Program-made: the position numbers and the translations under genes
In this document: positions 24,701 through 26,540 of the stretch, piece after piece
How positions within the stretch are numbered: the stretch's first letter is position 1
Layout of the letters: each line of letters starts with the position of its first letter
Assembly: GCF_025960985.1 (NCBI RefSeq)
Contig: NZ_JAOQMX010000005.1
Coordinates: forward strand, 1-64,000
Direction of reading: 5' to 3'
Source: Flavobacterium psychraerolatum
GTDB taxonomy: Bacteria > Bacteroidota > Bacteroidia > Flavobacteriales > Flavobacteriaceae
Length of the DNA: 64,000 nt
Notes under the pieces: model-generated
What the model was told of the DNA's origin: nothing
Database searches by the model: none
Seen by the model: the letters and a program-made list of their open reading frames with translations, nothing else

Positions 24701-25143
24701 AGTATAGTCGTTTTAAGTTGTCACATGTAGCAATCAATGTGCCAATTTACAGTATTTAGAAGTGTAATATTCCTAATTTTATTATAAAAATAATGAAAAA
24801 GATACAATTCTGTTTTGGTAACATTAATTGTATTTTGGGTTCCCGATAGCTATCAGAAAGAAAAAAGCGGATTGTCACATTCGTTTTAATTCCTTAATTC
24901 GTTTTACTAGTTTTTGGGCTTTTTACTACTATACTTCAGCTTAAAAAATGTCAATTTACAAAACAAGTATTTAACGAATTTGTCAGTAGAAGGAGACTTA
25001 GATAATTGATTATAAAACTACTACCTGAATTTATCCCAAAATAATACCTTTTTTTACTTTCGATAAAAAACAATTTGTATTTCAATTTTAGTTACTTTTA
25101 GGTATTCTATTTTTTTCTAAAAATTAGATTAAAAATAAATATC
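24701..25143. other. Gene-free gap upstream of the SatD operon
   Basis: AT-rich sequence with a 10-bp perfect palindrome GATAGCTATC at 24845-24854, flanked by CCC on one side only. It may be a decayed copy of a longer palindrome. Nothing else is supported before the repeats at 25144. Confidence 0.45.
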
Positions 25144-25215
25144 TGCTATTAACTGGATATTGTTTTTTATATGCTTTTTAGTATATAATTTTCATTATCT
25201 GCTTTTAAGTATATA
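25144..25215 (+). promoter_or_regulatory. Three 16-bp direct repeats, 28 bp apart, over the SatD promoter
   Basis: Repeats start at 25144, 25172 and 25200, exactly 28 bp apart. Copies 2 and 3 agree at 15 of 16 bases (TGCTTTTAAGTATATA in copy 3); copy 1 agrees with copy 3 at 12 of 16. Copy 3 overlaps a -7-like TATATTTA at 25214-25221, and copy 2 lies next to the -33 region. This layout suits an operator, plausibly bound by the helix-turn-helix of the first gene downstream. The binding protein is inferred. Confidence 0.6.
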
Positions 25216-25239: not shown

Positions 25240-25842
25240 ATGTTTGCAGTACTCACAGGAGACATCATTCAATCACAACAAACCGCTGTATCGATTTGGA
25301 TCACCGCTTTGAAGGACATTTTGAATCAATATGGCACTAGTCCAAAAGATTGGGAGATTTACCGCGGGGATAGTTTTCAAATTATAAGCACTCCAGAAAA
25401 TGTTTTAAATTTGAGTTTAATTATCAAATCCTATCTAAAAAGCAAAAATATCAACGTACGCATGGCCATTGGTATTGGAGATATTAACTATAGAACCGAT
25501 AAAGCAACAGAGTCTAATGGGAGCGCTTTTATAAATTCAGGAACTTGTTTTGATAGCTTGAAAAAACAAACCCTAGCGTTGCAAACCCCTTGGAATACCA
25601 TGAACGCCGTATTGCGTATCATGTTGGATTTGGCCTTACTTACCATGGATAAATGGACTGTAAAAACAGCTGAAGCAGTTTGCTATAAACTTCAAAATCC
25701 AACAATGAATCAAAAAGAGATTGCCCAAAAATTGGGTAATAAAGGGCAAGGAAACATCAGCGAAGCTCTGAAAAGGGGAGGCTATGACGAAATTAACCAA
25801 CTGTTACATTATTACCAAAAAAGTATTCTTGAATTATGTTAA
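25240..25842 (+). CDS. SatD-family protein: cyclase-like domain plus helix-turn-helix
   Basis: The 200-residue protein matches SatD-related proteins, whose role is unknown. Residues 1-110 follow the order of a class III nucleotide cyclase core: a strand ending in Gly7-Asp8-Ile, a hairpin with Gly43-Asp44-Ser-Phe, then VRMAIGIGDI (73-82) and a segment NGSAFINSG (93-101) where cyclases have GPxVNxAxR. The transition-state Arg of cyclases is not evident, so it may bind rather than convert a nucleotide. Residues about 150-190 (NQKEIAQKLG ... NISEALKRGGY) form a helix-turn-helix. Its stop overlaps the next start by 7 bp. The cyclase reading is my inference. Confidence 0.75.
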   Translation: MFAVLTGDIIQSQQTAVSIWITALKDILNQYGTSPKDWEIYRGDSFQIISTPENVLNLSLIIKSYLKSKNINVRMAIGIGDINYRTDKATESNGSAFINSGTCFDSLKKQTLALQTPWNTMNAVLRIMLDLALLTMDKWTVKTAEAVCYKLQNPTMNQKEIAQKLGNKGQGNISEALKRGGYDEINQLLHYYQKSILELC

Positions 25843-26540
25843 CACTATTCATCCCTTTTTTATTGGCACATTTTGTAGGCGATTTTTTATTGCAACCCAA
25901 TAAATGGGTCAAAGCAAAATCCGTGGCCAAACAAAGACCAAAATACTTATCCTATCATACAATTGTACATGGAGTAGTACTCGTGGTAGCATTGCAATTT
26001 CAGCTGCAGTATTGGGTCGGGATTCTCGCCGTACTCCTCACGCATTTTGCAATTGATTGGTTCAAATTAGAATACCAAAACAAACAAAATGAAATCTCAT
26101 TATTCTTTGGTGATCAATTGGCTCACCTACTTGTGATTGTCACTGTCGTATATTGCTATGAACCATTTGTATATGATCCTACAATAATTTCATTCGCTCA
26201 AATACTATTATTATTGATGGCAATACTGTTGCAAACAGAGGTCTCAGCTATCATCATGCGGATTTTATTGTCCAAATGGAAAATGAAAGAGGAATATCCC
26301 AACCAAGCCGGTAAGTATATCGGAATTTTGGAACGCCTCTTTATTTTTGGTTTTATAGTAATGAATTATTGGGAAGGAATCGGTTTTTTATTGGCTGCCA
26401 AATCTATATTTCGTTTTGGTGACCTAAACAATGCCAAGGACCGTAATTTAACCGAATATGTATTAATTGGAACATTGATTAGTTTTGGACTAGCGATGCT
26501 AATTGCACTTGGTTATCAATACGTAAACATATATTTATAA
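25836..26540 (+). CDS. DUF3307 membrane protein with paired His/Asp motifs
   Basis: The 234-residue protein has about five or six membrane helices and matches DUF3307. Four short motifs stand out: H12-x3-D16, H41-x3-H45, H70-x3-D74 and D93-x3-H97. Such spacing puts two polar ligands on one helix face each and suggests a metal site inside the membrane, as in membrane-bound metal-dependent hydrolases such as the YdjM/DUF457 group. That comparison is inference. The gene overlaps the SatD gene by 7 bp, so the two are almost surely cotranscribed and perhaps translationally coupled. The function is unknown. Confidence 0.85.
   Translation: MLTLFIPFLLAHFVGDFLLQPNKWVKAKSVAKQRPKYLSYHTIVHGVVLVVALQFQLQYWVGILAVLLTHFAIDWFKLEYQNKQNEISLFFGDQLAHLLVIVTVVYCYEPFVYDPTIISFAQILLLLMAILLQTEVSAIIMRILLSKWKMKEEYPNQAGKYIGILERLFIFGFIVMNYWEGIGFLLAAKSIFRFGDLNNAKDRNLTEYVLIGTLISFGLAMLIALGYQYVNIYL

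Follow-up and report, generated by a model that had tools for sequence, protein, structure and literature searches.

SatD-like proteins with a predicted palm domain and helix-turn-helix, their membrane partners and a putative operator array: a candidate toxin-antitoxin-like module

Organization of the satD locus

We analysed a stretch of 64,000 nucleotides from Flavobacterium psychraerolatum (hereinafter the window), in which a gene for a protein with a predicted C-terminal helix-turn-helix (HTH) is preceded by a putative operator array and followed by a gene for a membrane protein (Table 1); the array and the partner gene are additions to the initial annotation of this region. The first protein matches the Pfam SatD family (PF16264) with 21.6 bits (E 1.8e-4), under the curated cut-off of 29, and is hence called SatD-like here, although its architecture is that of the family; the Pfam SatD search of its own genome and of 14 control genomes gave no match. 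Higher scores were found for relatives that likewise have the partner, namely those of Haloplanus (110.9 bits), locus L218 (59.7), Fusobacterium (53.5) and two alphaproteobacteria (52.3 and 51.6). The above-cut-off loci L168, L171, L172, L173 and L218 all have the partner, and all but L171 have arrays.

Table 1. Features of the satD locus, numbered by position in the window
Feature	Coordinates	Strand	Details	Basis
Operator array (putative)	25140..25215	+	six 6-bp half-sites, alternating orientation, every 14 bp	sequence
Half-sites of the array	25140, 25154, 25168, 25182, 25196, 25210	+	TATCTG, TGGATA, TATATG, TATATA, TATCTG, TATATA, respectively	sequence
SatD-like protein	25240..25842	+	200 aa, ATG start	ORF translation
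SatD palm domain (predicted)			residues 1 to about 118; strands 2-9, 38-41, 45-50, 73-80, 112-115; metal-type D8, D44
SatD C-terminal HTH (predicted)			helices 158-165 and 170-179	predicted model
HTH recognition helix (predicted)	25747..25776	+	residues 170-179; E175 at 25762-25764	model helix and covariation
Membrane partner	25836..26540	+	234 aa; DUF3307 (about 4-108) and C-terminal core	ORF, Pfam, model
Partner core motifs	within 25836..26540	+	GxxER, AKSxFRFGDL, TEYxxIGTxxS; C-terminal	sequence

The family name comes, according to secondary statements and reference titles, from the S. mutans sat operon, and this name is what would recommend a role in secretion and acid tolerance; the title of the 2001 paper on the S. 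mutans sat genes, however, reportedly credits Ffh, and we regard such a role as scarcely credible. Among the matches listed by a search of the open literature there was no description of the SatD fold, the partner or the operator, which is no proof of absence; as far as the accessible text of these sources goes, DUF3307 is mentioned in a Ralstonia phage paper and the "SatD family" in a Fusobacterium annotation paper. In S. pyogenes, according to the accessible part of one report, satD is present in 178 of 249 genomes, and it alone among the accessory genes reaches the upper quarter of the essentiality scores (PMC11323703).

The N-terminal domain of SatD is predicted to adopt a palm fold

The AlphaFold2 model of SatD, computed from the window protein aligned with 81 relatives (pLDDT 96.8, pTM 0.92), runs through a strand (residues 2-9), a helix (17-31), a hairpin (38-41/45-50), a helix (52-67), a strand (73-80), a helix (95-105) and a strand (112-115), and continues with helices that include the HTH. 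The initial annotation had read the protein as a degenerate class III cyclase domain with a palm/ferredoxin-like core joined to an HTH. Structure prediction and fold search recovered both the palm and the HTH, and the sequence motifs stand in the order that it had claimed (TGDII at 6-10, YRGDSF at 41-46, VRMAIGIGDI at 73-82 and NGSAFINSG at 93-101).

In a Foldseek search of the PDB the top match was the class III adenylyl cyclase Ma1120 (4wp9; E 3.9e-4, probability 1.00, TM-score 0.44 by query length), with Cas10/Csm1, Rv1900c, cUMP synthase, GTP cyclohydrolase III, Pycsar cyclases (7r65, 8jsz) and GGDEF domains below it; three matches reached E <= 0.001. The mCpol structures were absent among the 50 fold matches listed, which has no bearing either way. 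Superposition with VIA-align placed GTP cyclohydrolase III (Z 9.6, rmsd 2.7, 104 residues) beside the cyclases (Z 8.0-9.4; Rv1625c at Z 9.4, rmsd 2.4, 117 residues), GGDEF domains (about 8.5), and Cmr2 and Y-family polymerases (about 8), all of them within 1.6 Z units.

Profile comparisons point in the same direction. An hhalign comparison of 27 SatD-like proteins with 14 class III cyclases (E 2.7e-4, probability 42%, 84 columns) pairs D8, D44 and R74 of SatD with the D, GD and RxGI positions of the cyclases, and a 23-sequence SatD profile searched against PDB sequences recovers Ma1120 (E 7.7e-4, profile positions 4-93) beside HTH regulators. In whole genomes the SatD profile reaches, at the edge of detection, a class III cyclase (genome G235) and a Y-family polymerase (G247), both identified with Pfam. 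The window protein alone found no match among PDB sequences; it has no match to the class III cyclase model PF00211 up to E 10, a search in which the HMMER filters drop most weak matches, and its own genome has no PF00211 match at E <= 0.001. Based on the predicted model, we conclude that the N-terminal domain of SatD is a palm domain of this superfamily, but not clearly a class III cyclase: the palm part of the earlier reading stands, whereas the narrower label is not fixed by these comparisons, because GTP cyclohydrolase III, GGDEF, Cas10 and Y-family polymerases score nearly alike.

Conservation of active-site-like residues

D8, S12, G43 and D44 are the sole columns invariant in all 23 of a set of SatD-like proteins chosen for their diversity (from Bacteroidota, alpha- and gammaproteobacteria, Fusobacteriota and haloarchaea), and Q47 and R74 are kept in at least 90% of them. 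The retention of both metal-type aspartates had been noted in the initial annotation, and indeed they are invariant not only in this set but also in 82 aligned SatD members. Outside the set of 23, the SatD of locus L225 lacks both, with GK in place of GD8 and GN in place of GD44, and in an Aerococcus SatD-like protein the tblastn match starts past the D8 region.

The catalytic arginine was likewise correctly described as not evident in the window protein: the class III position, for which we follow the definition of the transition-state arginine in the accessible part of PMC4886424, is occupied by T102, and there is no arginine in residues 95-111. By pattern count, position 102 is E in 55 and R in two of 80 members of the window clade, and in the 23 diverse members it is R in 11 and K in two when read by motif; the register is read in this way as the hhalign alignment ends before position 102. 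For the transition-state asparagine, with the register set by eye, I98 lies at the expected spacing and N99 one place off. Since diverse SatD members share few invariant residues and both aspartates belong to these, the description of the domain as "degenerate" is doubtful, even if the missing arginine of the window protein agrees with it. We propose, from this conservation and the predicted fold, that the palm domain has, most likely, a nucleotide as its ligand or substrate. DUF2652 is, in the accessible text of PMC4886424, a different class III-like family.

A near-obligate membrane partner

The start of the partner gene overlaps the satD stop by 7 bp. Residues 4-108 of its product match DUF3307 with 96 bits, and its predicted model is all helical, with no beta strand (pLDDT 88.2, pTM 0.66); compared with PDB folds, this model gave nothing convincing (best E 2.4; best Z 7.4 over 81 residues).

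All 130 satD loci of our collection, in which species are partly repeated and which includes 20 loci hand-picked from 86 genomes of the window's family, have a DUF3307-type ORF downstream of satD on the same strand. It lies within -20 to +60 bp of satD in 126 of them, and the two reading frames overlap in 117 (4 bp in 68 loci, 7 bp in 42). In a sample of 198 genomes from the window's phylum (Bacteroidota, as judged by relatives), the partner stands beside 61 of 62 SatD loci, the sole exception being L225, whose SatD lacks the partner, the array and both aspartates. In the class to which a Kangiella genome belongs, SatD was found in eight of 321 genomes, Kangiella included, with the partner in all eight loci.

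The phylum count was obtained by correcting 64 profile matches in the 198 genomes to 62 SatD loci: two HTH-only matches (G294:C12, G227:C3) and two other palm proteins (the Y-family polymerase of G247 and the class III cyclase of G235) were removed, and two SatD genes located next to partners (G227:C7, G294:C36) were included. Coordinates supplied 49 of the 61 partners and individually read loci the other 12. For the shortest partners, whose profile matches are weak (E about 1e-4 to 4e-4, small ORF sets), position and the motif in common decided; the G160 partner, counted among the 61, has an in-frame stop, and G249:C74 was taken as the complementary half of a partner that contig ends interrupt.

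The DUF3307 domain itself is optional: the partner has about 105-138 residues in about a dozen loci that were read, in Sphingomonas parapaucimobilis and in Agrobacterium. These short partners retain three hydrophobic segments and a core of GxxER, A(A/L)KxxxR and (E/D)YxxxGxxxS, with a few departures. The genomes G200 (L227, L207) and G306 (L249, L206) each carry two SatD-partner modules of differing type, one with a DUF3307 partner and one with a 105-residue core partner. At L117 (6597-7311) the partner gene seems to be split into two ORFs.

Conversely, the partner occurs without SatD as an intact-looking gene in two genomes (G190, G244) and as a fragment in one (G263), and its retention there disfavours strict addiction. 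Intact-looking partners with neither SatD nor array were observed at L213 (1937-2623) and L214 (1669-2439), which belong to one genus, several other members of which carry the SatD-partner pair. In Aerococcus (L175, 5917-8709) a SatD-like protein without a Pfam SatD match lies beside a 644-residue DUF975 membrane protein and a ribonuclease/barstar pair; the DUF975 protein is perhaps a swapped partner.

A putative operator array upstream of satD

The array of the window consists of three imperfect palindromes with a 28-bp period, and it includes a 21-nt repeat pair 56 bp apart. Its score of 0.76 compares with a best of 0.69 in 101 shuffles. The pattern derived from it, searched with up to three mismatches in its own genome (4.2 Mb), occurs only at 25140-25215, and the reversed control occurs nowhere.

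To place this array in a wider context we scanned the 150-bp region upstream of satD for self-repeats in 101 loci, a set from which L001-L030 were left out on account of species overlap with L051-L130. The best offset was 28 bp in 77 loci, 56 bp in 10 and 29 bp in eight, and the mean best 20-base self-match was 16.7 at offset 28 and 14.4 at offset 56 (shuffled, 10.4 and 10.0), against 9.6 to 11.3 at the remaining offsets from 10 to 59. The repeats are palindromes whose half-sites alternate in orientation every 14 bp. The array score, which tests the 28-bp period only, lies above the best of 101 shuffles in 90 loci and below it in 11. Among 30 further satD loci, many of them from other lineages, which had no shuffle control, the best repeat lies at 28-29 or 56-58 bp in 22, including those of Vibrio, Salinivibrio, Agrobacterium and haloarchaea, and eight have no such best repeat (L159, L160, L163, L164, L171, L175, L225 and L229). 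In 10 genomes picked for a CCGATA half-site type, the corresponding 24-base array pattern (up to three mismatches) is found at one place in each, which by coordinates is the satD promoter, and the reversed pattern in none.

The consensus of the Bacteroidota-type -7 box is TAnnTTTG. A copy is present in 58 of the 90 array loci, for which the random expectation used a crude composition model, and it overlaps or abuts the array in 46, an arrangement that fits repression; the window array has no exact copy there.

A putative recognition code linking residue 175 to the half-site

Species differ in the three bases that lie inside the ATA of the half-site. In 72 of the 82 aligned loci, mutual information with the half-site is highest for residue 175 of the predicted recognition helix (z 13.1), followed by residue 169 (z 10.1); residues 171, 176 and 172 reach z 6 to 8, mixed with the columns 146, 200, 145 and 58 outside the HTH. 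Shared ancestry was considered as the cause of the covariation and disfavoured: residue 175 stays first in de-replicated sets of 61, 35 and even 21 sequences (0 of 500 permutations in each), from which loci with a score below 0.7 or an unreadable half-site had been dropped, though the good scores of columns 146, 200 and 58 outside the HTH temper this.

Within the 61 sequences, E175 goes with a half-site ending in GATA in 29 of 31 cases, Q175 with CTAATA in eight of 11, K/R175 with GTAATA or GGAATA in five of five and T/Y175 with CATATA in four of four. The window has E175 together with two TATCTG half-sites (CAGATA on the other strand), as the E175 group predicts; the remaining ones are degenerate, and TATATA, the half-site assigned to it automatically, places it among the two exceptions to the E175 rule. 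Such a code would allow the prediction of sites and the design of binding tests.

As the half-site covaries with recognition-helix residue 175, SatD very probably reads the sites of the array, and we propose on these sequence patterns that it very probably controls its own operon through this row of matching DNA sites. The transcription-factor part of the earlier idea is supported by this covariation across species and by the single occurrence of the operator array in the genome.

Phyletic patterns and genomic contexts

SatD is patchy in its distribution, being found in 86 of 149 genomes of the window's family and, by match count, in 61 of the 198 phylum genomes (59 after removal of the two other palm proteins). 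Yet the SatD-partner module is widespread, occurring on plasmids as small as 3.8 kb and in archaea. In 82 loci (the window, 80 genomic loci and a viral one), the commonest neighbour family beyond SatD and its partner is present in 17; the idea that SatD is a defence gene, on neighbourhood alone, was rejected. The window's other neighbours recur in none of the other 81 loci, and the chromosomal regions around the loci of the Kangiella class look ordinary by eye.

These ordinary contexts would suit an alternative that we consider possible though doubtful, in which SatD is a plain ligand-sensing repressor with a dead NTP-sensor palm, and the partner a harmless envelope or transport protein tuned to nucleotide state and devoid of toxicity. 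The HTH with its operators, the absence of the class III arginine in the window and most of its clade, and the occurrence of the partner alone in two genomes are all consistent with it. Against this stand the metal aspartates, invariant in 82 and in 23 members and lost in the sole partnerless SatD, and the published essentiality of an accessory satD (PMC11323703, in its accessible part).

In a 3.77-kb plasmid type of E. coli and Klebsiella the SatD-partner pair is the main cargo; in its representative pEC34A (L159, 1792-3481) a SatD-like and DUF3307 pair is accompanied by few other annotated genes besides Rop and MobA. Seven records represent this plasmid type, including one of 4.4 kb, and the pair of pEC34A had no match in E. 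coli genomes. Near plasmid-borne satD we observed PycC, PycTM and a ThsB-like gene in Sphingomonas insulae, GajA/GajB in Enterobacter kobei and HerA in Agrobacterium; 15 plasmid regions were viewed, and seven of 10 hand-picked neighbours from three regions match PADLOC, a tally made with no control. Two unrelated plasmids (L161, 9506-12594, Enterobacter; L173, 4083-5873, Agrobacterium) each have a DUF4365 protein in the vicinity of the pair, and these proteins had no PADLOC match. A viral contig (L165) carries the pair beside ORFs that resemble phage structural genes by eye; further viral-contig scans with three single proteins of other SatD clades found no match, nor did the window SatD, the window partner and the Fusobacterium SatD in 50,697 phage records.

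Given these contexts, we weighed a Panoptes-like function, in which the palm would be an active synthase whose constitutive nucleotide keeps the partner closed and phage removal of this nucleotide would trigger it. The logic would be that of mCpol-2TMbeta (accessible portions of PMC12657218 and PMC12657230), and the invariant metal pair, the small plasmid carrying the pair and the defence genes near three plasmid copies agree with it. However, no nucleotide-binding domain is recognised in the partner, as its model has no beta strand and no convincing solved fold; an HTH with operators is not described for Panoptes in the accessible text of those papers, neither of which mentions there DUF3307 or the SatD family; and no defence genes are evident by eye near the chromosomal copies. 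We hold this function to be improbable. Still less should SatD be expected to produce a messenger upon infection that opens the partner, as in activating Pycsar- or CBASS-like signalling: the cyclase-like fold adjoining a membrane protein and the Pycsar cyclases among the fold matches would be in keeping with this, but restraint accords better than activation with the essentiality of satD and with the operator array, and PADLOC 2.0.0, including its PycC/PycTM models, yielded E 0.14 at best for three SatD-partner pairs. We consider it very improbable.

Proposed function of the SatD-partner module

We favour, with slightly better than an even chance, the proposal that SatD is dedicated to its membrane partner, regulating their common operon and restraining the partner, so that the two genes form a toxin-antitoxin-like module. 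Under this proposal the HTH would bind the tandem palindromes over its own promoter and repress the operon, a step to which the sequence patterns point strongly; the palm would bind an NTP and metal at D8/D44, possibly with catalysis; the nucleotide state would set DNA binding, directly keep the three-TM core of the partner inactive, or both; and the partner would be released if SatD or its nucleotide were lost or diverted. That a harmful partner is restrained is suggested chiefly by satD being accessory and yet essential in S. pyogenes (PMC11323703, accessible part), because a gene that is accessory but indispensable to its carriers has the look of an antitoxin or immunity gene. The link from that gene to the SatD-partner pair is indirect, and the single Firmicutes copy encountered, that of Aerococcus, has a DUF975 neighbour. 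Against the favoured proposal count the partners without SatD (G190, G244 and the fragment of G263), the weak arrays in 11 of 101 loci, the eight of 30 loci lacking a best repeat at 28 or 29 bp, the imperfect array of the window with its exceptional automatic half-site call, and the missing class III arginine of its SatD.

More speculatively, SatD might be both an autorepressing antitoxin and a palm nucleotide synthase whose product keeps the three-TM partner closed. We think this combination rather unlikely; if true, it would constitute a class of inhibitory nucleotide signalling that is distinct from Panoptes and present in bacteria and archaea, and would explain the essential accessory satD of S. 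pyogenes, which the SatD module may account for in any case. A family known only by an inherited name gains a predicted fold with a centre that resembles an active site, together with a near-obligate partner and a putative DNA-recognition code.

Comparison with known systems

Like the class III cyclases (Ma1120, Pycsar PycC), SatD has a predicted palm fold, two metal-type aspartates and an RxxIG strand; the window protein differs from them in its lack of the catalytic arginine, its fused HTH and the absence of a PF00211 match. In type II toxin-antitoxin operons the first gene autoregulates via palindromes and overlaps the second, and such operons are accessory and found on plasmids. The SatD module shares these features, with autoregulation by palindromic operators predicted from sequence, but it has a membrane partner, whose toxicity is only putative, and a nucleotide-enzyme fold. 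With the mCpol-2TMbeta systems of Panoptes, as these appear in the accessible portions of their descriptions, it shares a two-gene operon of a palm protein and a small membrane protein, and it differs from them in a partner that is all helical in the model rather than a 2TM protein with a beta-barrel, and in its HTH and operator array.
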